From JBFMHD01 sp040752395 [NCBI: Candidatus Hydrogenedentota bacterium] (GTDB taxonomy: Bacteria; JBFMHD01): 8,185 bases of DNA. Under the pieces are notes generated by a model that saw only the letters and a list, made by a program, of their open reading frames with translations, did no database searches and had not been told where the DNA came from. Of this stretch, positions 278 to 8,069 are shown one piece after another. Numbering within the stretch: position 1 is the first letter of the stretch; every line of letters starts with the position of its first letter. The position numbers were made by a program, and so were the translations under genes. The stretch spans positions 1 to 8,185 of the forward strand of contig JBFMHD010000123.1 in the NCBI GenBank assembly GCA_040752395.1, written 5' to 3'.

Positions 278-403
278 GGGATTCGAACAGGCATTTTGCG
301 CCGACCTTATGGGAGGGAAAATTCACAGGGATGTGAATGGCAGCAAAATGCCCAGCCTGTAATAATTTTTACGTGATGTAAAAATTATGGAAGGTCGAAT
401 CCC
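278..403 (+). ncRNA. Structured repeat element, copy 1 (unassigned RNA-like element)
   Basis: The element starts 10 nt after the tRNA with GGGATTCGAACAGGC (278-292). Its main stem pairs GGCATTTTGC (290-299) with GCAAAATGCC (343-352). An inner hairpin pairs ATTCACA (321-327) with TGTGAAT (332-338) around a GGGA tetraloop. A purine-rich internal strand carries GACCTTATGGGAGG (303-316), whose GACCTT is complementary to AAGGTC at 391-396, giving a possible pseudoknot. A further 11-bp AT-rich hairpin pairs 362-372 with 378-388. GGGATTCGA (278-286) pairs perfectly with TCGAATCCC (395-403), which could close the whole element. CAGGC (288-292) can alternatively pair with GCCTG (355-359), in competition with the bottom of the main stem. 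A second copy at 478-584 preserves the stems by compensatory changes, which argues for selection on folded RNA or single-stranded DNA. The strand is assigned by repeat orientation only. I do not recognise the family, and transcription is not shown. Confidence 0.6.
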
Positions 404-413
404 TCCCCCTCTG
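395..413 (+). repeat. Second copy of the tRNA-Ser 3' end (att-like direct repeat)
   Basis: The 17 bases TCGAATCCCTCCCCCTC at 395-411 exactly repeat the T-loop and acceptor 3' strand of the tRNA at 246-262. The wider match, 393-413 against 244-264, is 19 of 21 bases. The copies lie 149 bp apart with structured element copy 1 between them. Such a repeat is what site-specific insertion at a tRNA 3' end leaves behind, but no integrase gene is present. Slippage or gene conversion between element and tRNA is also possible. Confidence 0.6.
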
Positions 414-420
414 AATACAA

Positions 421-463
421 AAGTTAAAAGTAAGAAGTGGGAAGTGAGAAGTGAGAAAAAAAA
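421..463. repeat. Low-complexity AAGTGAGA-type repeat
   Basis: This is a degenerate 7-8-bp array (AAGTTAA, AAGTAAG, AAGTGGG, AAGTGAG, AAGTGAG) ending in an A-rich run. It separates the two structured element copies. It is purely low-complexity, with no gene or signal visible. Confidence 0.7.
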
Positions 464-477
464 GAGTTGTTTGATAA

Positions 478-584
478 GGGATTCGAACAGGCAATTTTCA
501 GCTGACCTTATGGGAGGAAGAGTTCACAAGGAAGTGAACGGAAGAAAATTGCCGTGCCTGGAGTGGACGAGACCCAAGGTCGAG
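478..584 (+). ncRNA. Structured repeat element, copy 2 (unassigned RNA-like element)
   Basis: This copy has the same orientation as copy 1 and begins with the identical 15 nt GGGATTCGAACAGGC (478-492). The main stem is GGCAATTTTC (490-499) with GAAAATTGCC (544-553). The inner hairpin is GTTCAC (522-527) with GTGAAC (534-539). The invariant GACCTTATGGGAGG lies at 504-517 and its partner AAGGTC at 576-581. Relative to copy 1, two base pairs of the main stem and one of the inner hairpin are changed on both sides so that pairing is kept. Landmark spacings are identical (18, 22 and 12 nt) except for a 1-nt difference near the 5' end and loss of 16 nt where copy 1 has its AT-rich hairpin. The 3' end here (TCGAGAG) lacks the tRNA-derived tail, so GGGATTCGA has no cis partner. 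Reading frames are not conserved between copies, which argues against a peptide. Confidence 0.6.
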
Positions 585-1911: not shown

Positions 1912-3471
1912 ATGCATAAATTTAAACAAATCATAACTTATAGATTACTACTTATAACTTTTATACTTAGTTATTTTATCCAAAGCACGTATGTGATTAC
2001 AGAGTGCAGCGCGGTTCCATATCAGGAAGGTGTTTTACTTGTAGGTATAAAAAAGACAAAAAAAGGGCTTAATCTATCAAGTCTTTATCAACCAAAAGAA
2101 GTTATACAGACTAATGAAATATCTATTATTAAAATAAACTTATTACCAGGTGAGGATATAAATACTAAAATAAAAGAGTTGCAAACACAGAAAGGTGTTT
2201 TATTTGTTCAGCCTAATTATAAATATGAGCTAAAAGCAGTCCCTGCGGATCCACTATACTCAGAGCAATGGTATTTGAATAATACAGGTCAGGGTGGTGG
2301 TAAAATCGGTGCTGATATAAAGGCTCAGAACGCATGGGATATTACAACAGGTGATACCACAGTAAGGATAGCGGTTCTTGATTGTGGGATTGATACCTCT
2401 GCTAATGATTATGTTTCTTATGTATCCGGGTTTGATTTTGTTGATTCTGATAACTCTTCAACGATCAGTGCTGGTAATGGTACTGACGATGATGACGATG
2501 GATTCATAGATGAGAATCTGCATCATGGCACAGCTATCGCAAGTATTATAGGTGCAAAGGGTAATAATTCTACAGGGTTATGCGGGATTATCTGGAATGC
2601 TCAAATATTTGATATAAGAGTATTTAATGATGATGGCATGAGTTATAGTGATTCTATAGCGTGTGCGATTAGGTATGCTGTGGATACCAATGCAAAGGTA
2701 TTGAATTTAAGTTTTGGGAATGATGCTGGAACCTATGACAATACAGTTGCTTCTGCTATAGATTATGCTCTTAGTAAGAATGTAATACTTGTAGCAGCTG
2801 CTGGTAATGGTGGTGGTAATACAATAGATTTTCCTGCTAATTATTCTTCTGTTATAGCTGTTGGGGCAAGTGATAGGAACGATTTACGGTGTGCGTTTTC
2901 TGACATAGGGCCAGAACTTGATATCGTTGCACCAGGGGTTGATATTATTAGTTATAAAGTTGGTGGTGGAACACAGGACCAAGACGGCACAAGTTTTTCA
3001 ACTGCAATGGTTTCAGCAGCAGCTGGATTATTATATTATCTTAATAACACTCTCACACCTTCAAGAATATTAACGATATTAAAAAATACAGCTGATGATT
3101 TATTACCAGCTGGTATAGATATTTATACAGGTGCAGGAAGGCTTAACTTATATCGAGCACTGAAATACTTAAGTATCAATGCTACAACATCGATAACAAG
3201 TGTTAATTATCCTAATCCGCTTGATTTTAGAACCTACACTTATACAACGATAGAATCAGATGCTATAACGCAAGGGGCGTTGATAAAATTGTATGATATA
3301 AAAGGCAGAGAGGTATATACGATACCGAGCAGTGATATTGATGGCACAGATGGTAAAGCTGTATGGCGTGGTATAAATTTTTCGAACGAAAGAGTTTCAG
3401 CAGGGATATATCCCTATCATATTAAAGGCAGCAGGGGGGAAGCGAAAGGGTTCGTAGTGGTAGTAAAATGA
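1912..3471 (+). CDS. Secreted subtilisin-family (S8) serine protease with C-terminal FlgD-like domain
   Basis: A 519-residue exported peptidase. Residues 1-34 form an export signal (basic MHKFK, then a long hydrophobic stretch to about 29). Residues 35-107 look like a fervidolysin/subtilisin propeptide ending in the GVLFVQPNY motif. The catalytic domain (about 115-415) shows the full triad: D157 in RIAVLDCGID, H205 in HHGTAIA and S361 in DGTSFST, plus oxyanion N299 in AAAGNGGG. An acidic run, D192-D196 within TDDDDDGFIDE, resembles a calcium-binding loop. The usual GTSMATPHVAG reads GTSFSTAMVSA, so the conserved Pro and His after the serine are replaced. Residues 430-519 (YPNPLDF... LYDIKGREVYT... 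VSAGIYPYHI) match the FlgD Ig-like/type-IX C-terminal domain style that anchors or sorts cell-surface proteins. A purine-rich AAGAAGAGAG precedes the ATG, with a weak promoter-like GATAAT at 1883-1888. It overlaps the next gene by 4 bp. Its substrate is unknown. Confidence 0.93.
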   Translation: MHKFKQIITYRLLLITFILSYFIQSTYVITECSAVPYQEGVLLVGIKKTKKGLNLSSLYQPKEVIQTNEISIIKINLLPGEDINTKIKELQTQKGVLFVQPNYKYELKAVPADPLYSEQWYLNNTGQGGGKIGADIKAQNAWDITTGDTTVRIAVLDCGIDTSANDYVSYVSGFDFVDSDNSSTISAGNGTDDDDDGFIDENLHHGTAIASIIGAKGNNSTGLCGIIWNAQIFDIRVFNDDGMSYSDSIACAIRYAVDTNAKVLNLSFGNDAGTYDNTVASAIDYALSKNVILVAAAGNGGGNTIDFPANYSSVIAVGASDRNDLRCAFSDIGPELDIVAPGVDIISYKVGGGTQDQDGTSFSTAMVSAAAGLLYYLNNTLTPSRILTILKNTADDLLPAGIDIYTGAGRLNLYRALKYLSINATTSITSVNYPNPLDFRTYTYTTIESDAITQGALIKLYDIKGREVYTIPSSDIDGTDGKAVWRGINFSNERVSAGIYPYHIKGSRGEAKGFVVVVK

Positions 3472-4409
3472 AAAGGTTCAAATTTTTCATAGTAATTTTA
3501 TTAAGTAGTGCGAGCATACTAAAATCTGGTACCCCTAATGGTGCTTCTTTTCTTGAGATGGTAACTCATCCGCGGCCTGCTGCGCTCGGCGAAGCGTATG
3601 TTGCAGCTGGAGACGATGTTTATAGCTTAACATACAATCCATCAGCTTCAGCAATTATAAAAACCCCGGAACTAGGGGCTGCATATCTCAATTTATTTGA
3701 TGAGATAAATTTAAATAGTTTTTCTATAGTTTATCCGTTTATGGATAGATTTGCTGTTGGGGGCGATATATTTTATTTTTCGTTTGATGACATAAGAAGA
3801 GATGAAAACGGGACCGCTAATGGCGAACTGAGTGTTAATAGTTTTGCAGTAACGCTTAACGGAGCGTTTAAAATAACAGATTACTTGGCAGCTGGTGCTA
3901 ATGTAAGATGGTTAAGGGAGGATTTTGATGTTGTGAGTGGAACTACTGTTGGGTTTGATCTGGGTGCACTTCTTAAGGTTCCGTTATATAAAGAATATGG
4001 TGAACTCAAGGGTGGTATAGCTATTCGGAATATCGGACCTGATATAGACCTTGGCAATGCTTCTGATAATTTACCACTAACAGCAGCTGTGGGTCTATCA
4101 TATAAGATTTTAGATTCGCTTTTATTCACAGCAGAATACCAATATGAAGACGATGATTCTTATAATCTCGGAGTTGAATATGTCTGGGCTGAGATGTTAT
4201 CATTAAGGATGGGCGCACGTTTTGATTCAAGGCAACCGGATGATAGCAGATTAAGGTTTGGTTGTGGGTTTAAATATCCTCGATTTGGGGCATTAGATTA
4301 TACATACGAGGACCAGGAAAATTTCGGTGCTATGCACCGAATCTCTTACAGATATATATTTAGGGAACAAGAGAAAACGCCTACCATTGGTTCAAAATAC
4401 AGACCATAG
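3468..4409 (+). CDS. PorV/PorQ-like outer-membrane beta-barrel protein
   Basis: A 313-residue protein with an N-terminal signal peptide (KRF, then a hydrophobic stretch at about 5-17). The motif PRPAALGEAYVAAGDDVYSLTYNPSA (35-60) is the hallmark of the PorV/PorQ family (also annotated UPF0164), followed by alternating beta strands and an aromatic-rich C-terminal strand (HRISYRYIF). In Bacteroidetes PorV shuttles type-IX secretion substrates at the cell surface. In other phyla relatives are common beside proteins with FlgD-like C-terminal tails, but their exact role is not established. Here the ATG overlaps the protease stop codon (ATGA) and no good Shine-Dalgarno is placed for it, so translation is probably coupled to the protease. 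An outer-membrane partner for that protease is the natural reading, by inference. The last roughly 15 residues (REQEKTPTIG...) form a polar tail beyond the barrel. No other secretion-system genes are in the window. Confidence 0.88.
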   Translation: MKRFKFFIVILLSSASILKSGTPNGASFLEMVTHPRPAALGEAYVAAGDDVYSLTYNPSASAIIKTPELGAAYLNLFDEINLNSFSIVYPFMDRFAVGGDIFYFSFDDIRRDENGTANGELSVNSFAVTLNGAFKITDYLAAGANVRWLREDFDVVSGTTVGFDLGALLKVPLYKEYGELKGGIAIRNIGPDIDLGNASDNLPLTAAVGLSYKILDSLLFTAEYQYEDDDSYNLGVEYVWAEMLSLRMGARFDSRQPDDSRLRFGCGFKYPRFGALDYTYEDQENFGAMHRISYRYIFREQEKTPTIGSKYRP

Positions 4410-4413
4410 ACTG

Positions 4414-4504
4414 AGAACGTGTGAAAAAATTAGACTTTTTTAGAAAATGGGGACTGATAATAAAAAAGTTAGCAGGTATTAATGTTGATTATTTCACACG
4501 TTCT
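4414..4504. mobile_element. Short inverted-repeat element (MITE-like, 91 bp)
   Basis: The perfect 13-bp terminal inverted repeats are AGAACGTGTGAAA (4414-4426) and TTTCACACGTTCT (4492-4504), with weaker similarity continuing inward. The left arm extended to 20 bp also matches 1802-1821 in inverse orientation, so this is a family of ends and not a chance hairpin. The interior (about 65 bp) has no coding potential. It begins 4 bp after the PorV-like stop codon and could also act as a large stem-loop at the 3' end of that mRNA, but there is no T-tract typical of an intrinsic terminator. A non-autonomous remnant of an insertion sequence is most likely. Confidence 0.55.
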
Positions 4505-4529
4505 GAGGGAATACAAAAAAATTCATAAA

Positions 4530-4801
4530 GAGGTCTCTTTTAAAACCCTGATTATCGCATCTAAAGATGCTCACTACATTTTTTATTTTTTGTAATTCCA
4601 ATATAATTATTTAATGCTGTATAAATAACGAGACTGTACAAAGAAAAGACACTTTATCTTTCTTTTCCGTTATCTTGCCTCTTGCTTCTAAACAAAGGCA
4701 CAAAGGTACAAAGATAAAAAGATTAAATGCAAATTGCAAAATTAGTCTCATTACTAATGCAGAGGTCAATAATATAATGTAGTGAGGGTCACAAGACCCG
4801 T
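4530..4801. mobile_element. MITE-like element copy A, interrupted
   Basis: The left part, 4530-4607, starts with the 18-bp end GAGGTCTCTTTTAAAACC. Its 4542-4607 matches 7950-8015 at 64 of 66 bases, including the hairpin palindrome GCATCTAAAGATGC (4557-4570). The right part, 4771-4801, matches 8008-8038 at 29 of 31 bases, including the stem-loop GGGTC-ACAA-GACCC (4786-4799). In the downstream copy these two parts are contiguous; here 163 bp separate them. The right terminal repeat seen in the other copy is missing or decayed. No open frame in it looks like a gene. Confidence 0.65.
4608..4770. other. 163-bp insertion inside MITE copy A, flanked by AATATAAT
   Basis: AATATAAT occurs at 4600-4607 and again at 4771-4778, but only once at the equivalent place in the uninterrupted copy (8008-8015). 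This is the pattern left by an insertion with an 8-bp target duplication. The insert carries a subterminal inverted repeat, TAACGAGACT (4626-4635) against AGTCTCATTA (4744-4753, one mismatch), and a CAAAG-rich simple repeat at 4693-4713. TGCCTCTTGCTTCT (4676-4689) inside it is the exact reverse complement of 4822-4835 outside it. No gene is seen. Confidence 0.45.
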
Positions 4802-4974: not shown

Positions 4975-7830
4975 TCAAGCTATTGGCAATATGATTGTAA
5001 AGACAGCGCCTTGTTCAGGATGGTTTACAGCCACAATGGTGCCATTATGATAGGATAATATTCTTTTAGCGATAGCGAGCCCGAGGCCGGTTCCCTGTTC
5101 TTTATCTGTATAAAACGGTTCGAATATTTTATCAAGGTGTTCTTTTTTTATTCCCGGGCCACGGTCTCTAATTTCTACTGATACAGTATTATCACTTCGA
5201 TGTCTCAAAGTGATATTAATAATCTGGTGTGGGCTACTAACTGAGGCAGCGTTATCTATAACATTCAGGAATACTCGGGTAAGAAGGCTTTCATCCGCAT
5301 TAATCCACGGTATCTCTTCAAATTTCTGGAACTCAAAGTTATAATTTTCAAATTTAGGCGAGAGAGTTATACATTTTTTAAGAAGGTTTTCTACATTTAC
5401 AGCCTTTTTATTTAGAGTATATTCGCGGGTATAATCAAGGATATTTTCAACCATCTTTTCAAGTCTCTCGGTCTCTTCAAGAATAATGTGTAAATAATCA
5501 GCTCTGTAACCTGTTTTGAGCATTCGTCTTACATAACCGCCAACAGAGGAAAGTGGATTTTTGAAATCATGTGCGATAGTAGAAGCCATCTGACCAACAG
5601 CAGCCAATCGTTCGCCCTGAATAAGCTTATCTGTGGTGTCTTTCAATTCCGAATGTGCATTAGTAAGTCTCTGATATAATGAGACACTTTCTATTGATAG
5701 TCCGGCAAGATTTGCGATTGTCTGGAGACTCGAGGCTTTTTCTTTTGTTGGTTTTTGTTTGGTGTATAAATTGTCTACAGATAAGATACCTATATTTTTT
5801 TCTTTTGAGACTATGGGTACTACTACCATGGTATCAGCATCGACAAGATTTAAAAAGAGGGGATGAATTTTTGTAGGTGGGTCGATATGAGCAGTGAAAG
5901 GATATCCCTGGAGAAAATTTACAATCGGGACTGAGTCTTTGTCTTTGAGCGGTATTTTAACGCTACAGACACGTTTATTGAATTTACTCTCTTTTATATT
6001 TTTTATATCGATATCGGTATAGAAAAAGTCTTCAAGACGTATCCCGACTTTCTGAGCACTTCTCCAGAGTATATCCACTTCATCAATAGTAGCTGGTCCA
6101 ATAGCAAAGGTGCCAACAAGAAGATCGCCGTCCTCTAGAAATATAACACAGCGATTAAAACCGACCCCAACACCAGCGGTTACAGCAGTAGAGATGATAT
6201 ACATTATCTGGTCAAGATCCATTGCGCCAAGAAGTGAAACACTAATTTTGTTTATGAGATTGAGTTCATTATAACTTTTATCTTTTTCTCTTTCCCGTTC
6301 AGAGAGCTGATGATGGAGTTTGGCATTGCTGTATGATTGTGAAGCGTGTAAAGCAAAAATTGACAATAGATGTAAATCAGCATCAGTAAAATTTGTGATA
6401 TTACCTGATGGTGTTAGTTTATCGTAAACAGTAATCGTTCCTATAACGTTATTTTTTTCTAACAATGGTATACAGATAGCAGAATGGACAGCACTTTTAT
6501 TTATTTTACTGCATCTTGGGTCTTTAGAGACATCTGGTATAAGAACGCTTTCTTTATGTTTAGCTACCCAACCGGCAAGCCCCTCGCCGATTTTTCGTGA
6601 ACTATCGTACGAATAATCAGGGTCTATACCGTAATGGGATACTATCTGTAATTCATTCTGCTCATTTAATATTCGCAGAACACAGCCACGGCCGCCAATA
6701 ACTTCACAGCTGTACTGGACGATATTATTAAGAACAGTTGATAAGCTGAGAGAGGCACTTAAGAACTTAGATTTTTCAAAAAGTAAGGAGAGTTCTTTTG
6801 TTTTACGCGTCATTTCAGCGTAGAATTTTGCGTTTCGCAGAGCACCGGATATCTGATTTGAGAGGGTTAATACAAAATCAATTTCTTTATCTGAAAAATG
6901 TCTAAAATTTTTTGTGAAAAGAAAAATTATTCCTTCGATATTTTCATTATAAGTAATAGGGACGCATAAAAGAGAACGAATGCTTATATTTGGTAAAGAA
7001 CCGATTATTAAAGGGAAATATTTTGATTCCTCAGAATGCATTGAGATTGAAGTATTATTCTTTATCTCTAAAAGAAATTTTTCGATTTTATCCTCTGAAA
7101 TCTCGATATGATGAATAAATTCTTCAGGAACACCACACCCGGATTCAAGAAAAAAGCGCGGTATTGTGGTAGATGTATCTTTTAACAGTATAAAACTACC
7201 ATCGGTATTGATTACACTCGCTAAAGCGCCTGAAACAACATCCAGTATCTTCTGGATATCAAGGGTCGAGGTAATAAATATTGAGAGGTCCCTTATTGTC
7301 TCAAGCTGTTCAAGCTCAAGACTTTTTGAAGGAGTATAAGTCTCTTTACTTATAAGCTCAGAGATAGTATTTAAATATTTTAAATCAGTCGAGATTTCAG
7401 AAAACCGTTTTAAAGGGACACTCTCATAAGAAGAAAATAAAAATTCAGGTTTGAAACTATAATCAGCTGCAATCTTACTGAAATCAGGCAGTGTAGAGCC
7501 TATCTGTCTTATACCGCACAGTAGTATCGTATAACGTTCTTTCTCTGATAGCTGAAATTTTGAAGAGATTATTATTAAACCAAATGGGCAGGTATTTATC
7601 ACTGAATGTGGAGATCCTAGGCCTTTTGAAGTGATATCAGCCCAGCATTCCTCACACTCTATTCTACTTTTATCACTTGAATGTATGAGTTCGCAGAAAG
7701 GGTGAGGTCGGTTATTACTTCCAAGTAATATTTTGCCATCTGATTTCAGAATAATATTATAAGGCCAGTCAGAGAACGACCTTTTAAGATATTCTTCAAT
7801 CTTTTGAAAAAATGATTTATCTATCTCCAT
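4975..7830 (-). CDS. Soluble PocR-GAF-GAF-GAF sensor histidine kinase
   Basis: A 951-residue cytosolic sensor kinase, with no signal peptide or membrane segment. Residues 1-115 resemble a PocR ligand-binding domain, with cysteines spaced C46-x12-C59-x2-C62-x18-C81 plus C105. Three GAF-type domains follow at about 185-335, 355-505 and 525-720; the third is the most divergent and longest. They are linked by helices likely to be coiled coil (about 335-355, 500-530, 715-745). The HisKA domain has phospho-acceptor H754 in TIAHDFKNPL. The ATPase domain shows the N box N856/N860, G1 D889-x-G-x-G893, F box FEPFY (903-907) and G2 GTGLGLA (913-919), so the kinase should be active. The family autophosphorylates and passes phosphate to a response regulator, but none is encoded here, nor is a receiver domain fused, so it is an orphan. 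PocR domains bind small organic ligands in characterised cases; the cysteine pattern could also hold a metal or sense redox. The ligand cannot be told. The gene is bracketed by two MITE copies. Confidence 0.93.
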   Translation of the reverse strand: MEIDKSFFQKIEEYLKRSFSDWPYNIILKSDGKILLGSNNRPHPFCELIHSSDKSRIECEECWADITSKGLGSPHSVINTCPFGLIIISSKFQLSEKERYTILLCGIRQIGSTLPDFSKIAADYSFKPEFLFSSYESVPLKRFSEISTDLKYLNTISELISKETYTPSKSLELEQLETIRDLSIFITSTLDIQKILDVVSGALASVINTDGSFILLKDTSTTIPRFFLESGCGVPEEFIHHIEISEDKIEKFLLEIKNNTSISMHSEESKYFPLIIGSLPNISIRSLLCVPITYNENIEGIIFLFTKNFRHFSDKEIDFVLTLSNQISGALRNAKFYAEMTRKTKELSLLFEKSKFLSASLSLSTVLNNIVQYSCEVIGGRGCVLRILNEQNELQIVSHYGIDPDYSYDSSRKIGEGLAGWVAKHKESVLIPDVSKDPRCSKINKSAVHSAICIPLLEKNNVIGTITVYDKLTPSGNITNFTDADLHLLSIFALHASQSYSNAKLHHQLSEREREKDKSYNELNLINKISVSLLGAMDLDQIMYIISTAVTAGVGVGFNRCVIFLEDGDLLVGTFAIGPATIDEVDILWRSAQKVGIRLEDFFYTDIDIKNIKESKFNKRVCSVKIPLKDKDSVPIVNFLQGYPFTAHIDPPTKIHPLFLNLVDADTMVVVPIVSKEKNIGILSVDNLYTKQKPTKEKASSLQTIANLAGLSIESVSLYQRLTNAHSELKDTTDKLIQGERLAAVGQMASTIAHDFKNPLSSVGGYVRRMLKTGYRADYLHIILEETERLEKMVENILDYTREYTLNKKAVNVENLLKKCITLSPKFENYNFEFQKFEEIPWINADESLLTRVFLNVIDNAASVSSPHQIINITLRHRSDNTVSVEIRDRGPGIKKEHLDKIFEPFYTDKEQGTGLGLAIAKRILSYHNGTIVAVNHPEQGAVFTIILPIA

Positions 7831-7938: not shown

Positions 7939-8069
7939 GAGGTTTCTGAAAAACCCTGTTTATCGCATCTAAAGATGCTCACTACATTTTTTATTTTTTG
8001 TAATTTCAATATAATGTAAAGAGGGTCACAAGACCCGTCTTTAAAAAATGAGGTTTTAAAAGAGACCTC
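7939..8069. mobile_element. MITE-like element copy B, uninterrupted
   Basis: This is a 131-bp element with imperfect terminal inverted repeats. The left end is GAGGTTTCTGAAAAACC (from 7939). The right end is GGTTTTAAAAGAGACCTC (8052-8069), an exact reverse complement of the left end of copy A (4530-4547). The interior carries the palindrome GCATCTAAAGATGC (7965-7978) and the stem-loop GGGTC-ACAA-GACCC (8023-8036), both shared with copy A. There is no coding potential. It is probably a non-autonomous transposable element; the conserved internal hairpins could alternatively mean a small structured RNA. Confidence 0.65.

Follow-up and report, generated by a model that had tools for sequence, protein, structure and literature searches.

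Behind the tRNA-Ser(TGA) gene in the window (the whole stretch of DNA analysed, 8,185 nucleotides of a Candidatus Hydrogenedentota bacterium contig, with a G+C content of 36%), positions 277-360 and 477-560 are a real duplicated structured element with a well-supported fold, and the element is most likely an RNA. Both copies carry a GGA hexaloop of the form recognized by CsrA-type proteins. The explanation that is developed here, to which we give a probability of roughly 0.3, is that the copies are paralogues from a local tandem duplication behind tRNA-Ser and that, as structured RNAs made by read-through from tRNA-Ser, they would titrate a CsrA-type protein. The features on which the argument draws are as follows.

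176-267, + strand: tRNA-Ser(TGA), identified by ARAGORN; Rfam tRNA, 54.3 bits
277-360, + strand: structured element copy 1, beginning 9 nt past the end of tRNA-Ser
277-292 (copy 2, 477-492), + strand: invariant 5' block, AGGGATTCGAACAGGC, 0/16 differences
290-299, + strand: main stem 5' arm of copy 1, GGCATTTTGC, partner 343-352, with two compensated pairs
343-352, + strand: main stem 3' arm of copy 1, GCAAAATGCC, from re-reading of the bases
301-316 (copy 2, 502-517), + strand: hairpin A, CCGACC-UUAU-GGGAGG in copy 1 and CUGACC-UUAU-GGGAGG in copy 2; contains the 14-nt invariant block GACCTTATGGGAGG, 0/14 differences
321-338, + strand: hairpin B of copy 1, 18 nt, stem ATTCAC/GTGAAT (321-326/333-338), fully paired
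327-332, + strand: hexaloop AGGGAU of hairpin B, copy 1, directly on the 6-bp stem
362-388, + strand: A+T-rich 11-bp hairpin behind copy 1 only, from the fold
391-403, + strand: AAGG and then TCGAATCCC, the putative duplication junction
395-411, + strand: perfect 17-nt copy (17/17 nt) of the tRNA-Ser 3' part (246-262), flanking copy 1
414-462 (approximate limits), + strand: 49 nt of mostly simple sequence of the GTGAGAA type, a 49-column gap in the alignment of the units
477-560, + strand: structured element copy 2, on the same strand as copy 1
490-499/544-553, + strand: main stem of copy 2, GGCAATTTTC/GAAAATTGCC, fully paired as in copy 1
522-539, + strand: hairpin B of copy 2, 18 nt, stem GTTCAC/GTGAAC (522-527/534-539), fully paired; ACAAGGAAGT
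528-533, + strand: hexaloop AAGGAA of hairpin B, copy 2, directly on the 6-bp stem

The tRNA-Ser gene is the only tRNA gene in the window. When the window was searched with a covariance model of the element (R2) in a cmsearch-type scan, the only two matches were the tandem copies, with scores (109.6 bits for copy 1 and 106.4 bits for copy 2) that are high by construction, as expected of a model scored on its own two copies. The copies are 79% identical in a stretch of 67 nt and 95% identical in another of 21 nt. The strongest constraint between them falls on the two invariant blocks, which lie mostly outside the main stem arms and together have 0/30 differences, while the remaining segments differ by 17-50%. 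Within the 5' block, GGGATTCGAAC is the exact reverse complement, over 11 nt, of the tRNA-Ser T-arm sequence GTTCGAATCCC (244-254). The 49-nt tract separates copy 2 from the tRNA tail copy and has no counterpart in unit 1. Simple-sequence tracts of the GACTCAA and GTGAGAA types flank tRNA-Ser together with copy 1 (1-80 and 414-462).

Each copy has the shape of a three-way junction in which a 10-bp main stem carries hairpins A and B. An earlier note on this DNA had described two same-strand copies with common spacing and fold and diverged sequence, and re-reading of the bases and coordinates bore this out, as it did the paired changes listed for the main stem and the inner hairpin. Main stem pair 5 is T-A in copy 1 versus A-T in copy 2, pair 9 is G-C versus T-A, and the first pair of hairpin B is A-T versus G-C. 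Across the 16 pairs of the main stem and hairpin B, three are changed on both sides and none on one side only, and all are still Watson-Crick. The six stem differences fall into three pairs with a hypergeometric P of 0.0018, and of 200,000 trials with six random substitutions, 0.038% kept every one of the 16 pairs standard (P = 0.00038); the stems and the ungapped register had been picked after inspection, and these P values, like the folding z-scores, were computed afterwards. Relative to dinucleotide shuffles, folding z-scores were -5.48 for copy 1 with flanks (268-415; 0/200 shuffles as good), -3.57 for copy 2 with flanks (469-600; 0/200), -3.44 for the core at 282-366 (1/200), and -2.50 for the core at 479-562 (3/200).

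The register of the alignment influences how the changes are counted. MAFFT places the one-base length difference between the copies inside the main stem, and in this gapped alignment the 20 pairs that include hairpin A have one double change and three pairs broken in one copy; the single one-sided change is C-G to U-G in hairpin A. The covariation in this alignment was not above that of shuffles (243/500 as high), in a comparison of two sequences that has almost no power. The register of hairpin A listed above is seen in the copy 2 fold, and the copy 1 fold gives CCUU/GAGG; the modelled hairpin may close by tandem G.A pairs. In the minimum-energy fold of 268-415, part of the tRNA tail copy (396-404) pairs with 277-285. 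A pseudoknot between YGACCUU and AAGGUCG was considered and rejected, its longest complementary run of 7 being reached by 274/300 and 150/300 shuffles.

The folding z-scores, the compensated pairs, and the diverging frames support the proposal of selection for a fold as opposed to a peptide. Open reading frames across the copies (196-336 and 387-611) have RDSNR in common and then diverge, so that there is no shared reading frame, and the spacing between the blocks is 25 nt in copy 1 versus 26 nt in copy 2, as had been stated correctly before. A protein-coding repeat was rejected because the frames diverge and the block spacing differs. The element is without an Rfam family, and the earlier statement that it could not be assigned to a named RNA family therefore holds for the Rfam comparison. 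Over 262-610, Rfam gave two snoRNA matches only (11.5 and 11.2 bits; E values of 7 and 4), far under the cut-offs. In the whole window, the only match reaching copy 1 was sX4 at 161-321, which lies mostly over the tRNA and scored 37.4 bits versus a cut-off of 70. Integron attC sites, IS200/IS605 ends, and ribozymes were also considered and set aside, and Rfam lent them no support.

According to PMC4005645, a high-affinity CsrA/RsmE site is a hexa-loop ANGGAX that sits directly on a stem and whose N and X positions vary. The CsrA SELEX consensus has been reported as RUACARGGAUGU, and 51 of the 55 ligands had GGA in a hairpin loop (PMC7652899). The two loop differences between the copies sit at the N and X positions of ANGGAX, and hairpin B of copy 1 contains ACAGGGATGT, which agrees at every position with the ACARGGAUGU portion of the SELEX consensus. 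When 268-600 is folded, the GGA bases of both hexaloops are unpaired with a probability of 1.0; in the copy 1 hexaloop, the outer A and U are paired in the minimum-energy fold. Counted strand by strand, ANGGAN hexaloops account for 2 of the 42 Watson-Crick hexaloop hairpins in the window with a stem of at least 5 bp, and both are the hairpins B of copies 1 and 2. Under a first-order Markov null the mean was 0.083, with one such hexaloop in 5/60 random windows and two in 0/60; the motif was noticed after the fact, and because the copies are related the two hexaloops are not two independent finds.

ACARGGATGT occurs once in the window (expected, 0.02; 4/200 shuffles reach one). The looser pattern WCANGGANGW matches only the two hairpin B sites in the window and is weak taken alone, because 32/200 window shuffles reach two. 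Over 277-610 there are 13 GGA, versus 9.2 in mononucleotide shuffles (p = 0.098); two are in the ANGGAN hexaloops, and the others are partly paired or single-stranded. The invariant blocks (16 and 14 nt) are superfluous for a simple GGA sponge. The CsrA domain PF02599 was found in 0/2 distant genomes and 3/14 controls, a comparison that is uninformative on the host of the window. The suggestion of a small RNA, one of several in the earlier note, remains the best option and can be sharpened to a CsrA-type docking hairpin; the hexaloops themselves are new to this analysis.

The tRNA tail copy at 395-411, which the earlier note had not recorded, bears on the origin of the tandem. Judged by its sequence, the tandem appears to have arisen when the segment between two TCGA sites, one in the tRNA T-loop (246) and the other at 580, was duplicated locally. 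The junction would join the downstream edge AAGGTCGA (576-583) to the same 9-nt piece of the tRNA (246-254); past copy 2 the sequence reads AAGG and then TCGAGAG (576-586), and the tRNA counterpart is GGTTCGAATCCC. A duplication at TCGA microhomology would leave both the AAGG junction and the 17-nt repeat. Since local tandem duplication explains the arrangement, no mobile element or integrase is needed. In unit 2, the tRNA piece differs at 1/19 positions, which is less divergence than in most of the element, although the numbers are small. No third tRNA-tail repeat was found in 561-700, behind copy 2.

In the CsrA reading, we infer for the steps past the fold that transcription would read through from tRNA-Ser into the element and that tRNA 3' processing would then free the element RNA. 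The hexaloops would bind a protein of the CsrA/RsmA family, holding CsrA away from mRNAs, and the two copies would form a small sponge through which CsrA activity is coupled to the transcription of stable RNA, as has been suggested for RrA/B/F. The specific form in which the ANGGAN hexaloops of a multi-branched read-through RNA would set the level of free CsrA according to stable-RNA transcription (compare PMC4682653, 2015) is rather doubtful. A consensus scan of 1-900, from which the host's own signals may differ, gave no + strand terminator-like site and no + strand promoter-like site before tRNA-Ser. It placed + strand promoter-like sites at 322, 337, 708, and 857 (4 versus 1.7 in shuffles), of which two weak ones (322-349 and 337-366) fall within copy 1 or on its edge. 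It is possible that copy 2 might have its own transcription start.

A structured RNA with another role, perhaps exerted through the T-arm-antisense 5' block, is about as likely as a CsrA sponge. Such an RNA would be a tRNA-linked small RNA or trailer in which the GGA hexaloop is incidental, and its blocks GGGATTCGAAC and GACCTTATGGGAGG would either base-pair, with the tRNA or with some other RNA, or bind a different protein, for example to control tRNA-Ser maturation. This tentative alternative draws on the exact 11-nt match to the T-arm, which is identical in both copies, on the minimum-energy fold of 176-415, which pairs the 5' block with the T-arm, and on the blocks being where constraint is strongest; copy 2 likewise has a T-arm-like piece upstream, in the tRNA tail copy. 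However, the folds of 176-366 and 176-600 keep the acceptor and T stems of the tRNA, part of the T-arm match is cheap in that TTCGAA is a palindrome common to many T-arms, and the searches returned no homologs against which the idea could be tried. The element could also be palindromic DNA that evolves neutrally, an inverted repeat that was duplicated, has no function, and owes the continued match of its arms to template switching, and this seems unlikely. Matched palindromes can indeed also come from template switching in DNA, the neighborhood is rich in repeats, only two copies in a single record are at hand, and covariation in the gapped alignment did not exceed that of shuffles. Set against this are the 30 invariant bases of the blocks, mostly outside the main arms, amid differences of 17-50% elsewhere, the three compensated pairs with none broken in the ungapped register, and the retention of both hexaloops.

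The earlier note had also raised a tRNA-linked mobile element, which is not favored. Site-specific integration is possible. A small element that had integrated at the 3' end of the tRNA and survives as a remnant, with attL/attR-like direct repeats and activity as a folded single strand, would place copy 1 between the 17-nt perfect direct repeats at 246-262 and 395-411; a direct repeat of the tRNA 3' part is what integration into tRNA genes usually leaves. That such a remnant accounts for the locus is nevertheless improbable. The third repeat is missing from 561-700, the unit is just 149 bp, and the window has only the two tandem copies and no dispersed ones. The four large open reading frames encode a glycosyltransferase, an S8 peptidase, a PorV-like protein, and a histidine kinase, and no integrase, recombinase, or transposase was found among these four proteins, to which the scan was confined, other open reading frames of at least 40 aa lying outside it. 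There was no phage match, and plasmids gave only two 33-nt matches (E values of 0.03 and 0.3). Microhomology duplication accounts for both the repeat and the AAGG junction. As a whole, the earlier interpretation is partly supported.

The reading as a CsrA sponge has parallels among known RNAs. RrA, RrB, and RrF are E. coli sRNAs reported to be transcribed within the rRNA transcript and to interact with CsrA and Hfq, and deletion of the rRNA-operon sRNAs is described as having modest effects only (PMC8144298). The likeness, drawn by description, is that of a short structured RNA behind a stable-RNA gene, in paralogous copies, with read-through in the E. coli case; contact with CsrA is shown there and proposed here. 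The present element differs in lying behind a tRNA gene, in its two tandem diverged copies, in having no Rfam match, and in being known from sequence alone. CsrB/CsrC and RsmX/Y/Z likewise present GGA in stable hairpin loops of the ANGGAN form, repeated within one locus. In contrast to those RNAs, the present element has no Rfam match, a single strict hexaloop in each copy, large invariant blocks, and no terminator of its own in the consensus scan of 1-900. The covariance models of the CsrB/CsrC/Rsm families in Rfam had no match over the element. The element may work like a Csr-type sponge but is not assigned to CsrB/C or Rsm. The leuZ 3' external transcribed spacer is a tRNA trailer sRNA that pairs with other sRNAs, and the element resembles it as a putative RNA from sequence behind a tRNA gene but differs in its multi-branched fold and two copies.

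No homolog was found in the viral, phage, plasmid, or sampled genome sets, which need not include this lineage, so that absence from them is weak evidence; the further homologs, whose lack the earlier note had named as refuting its proposal, were likewise absent from all sets searched. Exact block patterns had 0 matches in viral contigs and 0 in genome contigs, and blastn of 260-610 gave no match in phages. The two plasmid matches, over 270-302 (90.9%, under a GNAT gene of Yokenella) and over 428-460, were both taken as chance. The 15-mer of hairpin A retrieved 49 viral stretches, and R2, searched over these and the window, gave 28 further matches at E ≤ 10 (best, 18.6 bits), which were also taken as chance. 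At E ≤ 0.1 per genome, R2 matched 1/198, 0/99, 2/240, and 3/249 genomes, with scores of 18.9-22.7 bits; the samples were centered on genomes with distant peptidase relatives and were searched with stricter filters and no known-positive control genome. Three of these six matches (L007, L060, and L061) are situated within long or overlapping open frames, and their similarity is mainly to the 5' block, the other three were judged from their alignments alone, and all six were treated as chance. The tRNA-Ser pattern was found in one viral contig (L057), in which other sequence follows the tRNA and R2 has no match at E ≤ 1. In the titles and opening abstract lines of a limited literature collection, there was no description of the element.

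The rest of the window contains further repeats and a group of large genes. The S8 peptidase (1912-4409) has a weak T9SS-type C-terminal sorting domain (TIGR04183, 21.6 bits versus a cut-off of 23), and its gene overlaps that of a PorV/PorQ-family protein by 4 bases; it is possible that the two form a secretion pair. Inverted repeats related to AGAACGTGTGAAAAAATTAG surround the S8 peptidase and PorV-like genes (1802-1821, 4414-4433, and 4488-4507), and 4411-4430 together with 4488-4507 is a short inverted-repeat element. The histidine kinase (951 aa; 4975-7830) combines a PocR sensory domain with GAF domains. Kinase and peptidase queries found no relatives in viral contigs. In genome contigs, the S8 peptidase had six distant loci, with a best segment of ≤34% identity, and the restriction to six such loci would fit a poorly sampled lineage. 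A MITE-like repeat is present in two copies, 4530-4801 and 7950-8069, which are 97% identical over 66 nt and 94% over 31 nt; positions 4530-4547 (GAGGTCTCTTTTAAAACC) match 8052-8069 exactly in inverse orientation. Within the copy at 4530-4801, the matching pieces are 163 nt apart (4608-4770) and AATATAAT bounds both sides (4600-4607 and 4771-4778), as if the 163-nt piece were another, inserted element. The 4542/7950 repeat pattern had no match in the sets searched.

If the CsrA reading is false, a multi-branched element with 30 invariant bases and without an Rfam match still merits a metagenome search. If it is true, the element would represent a small RNA that binds CsrA and is coupled to a tRNA gene, and one transcript would link tRNA output and post-transcriptional control.
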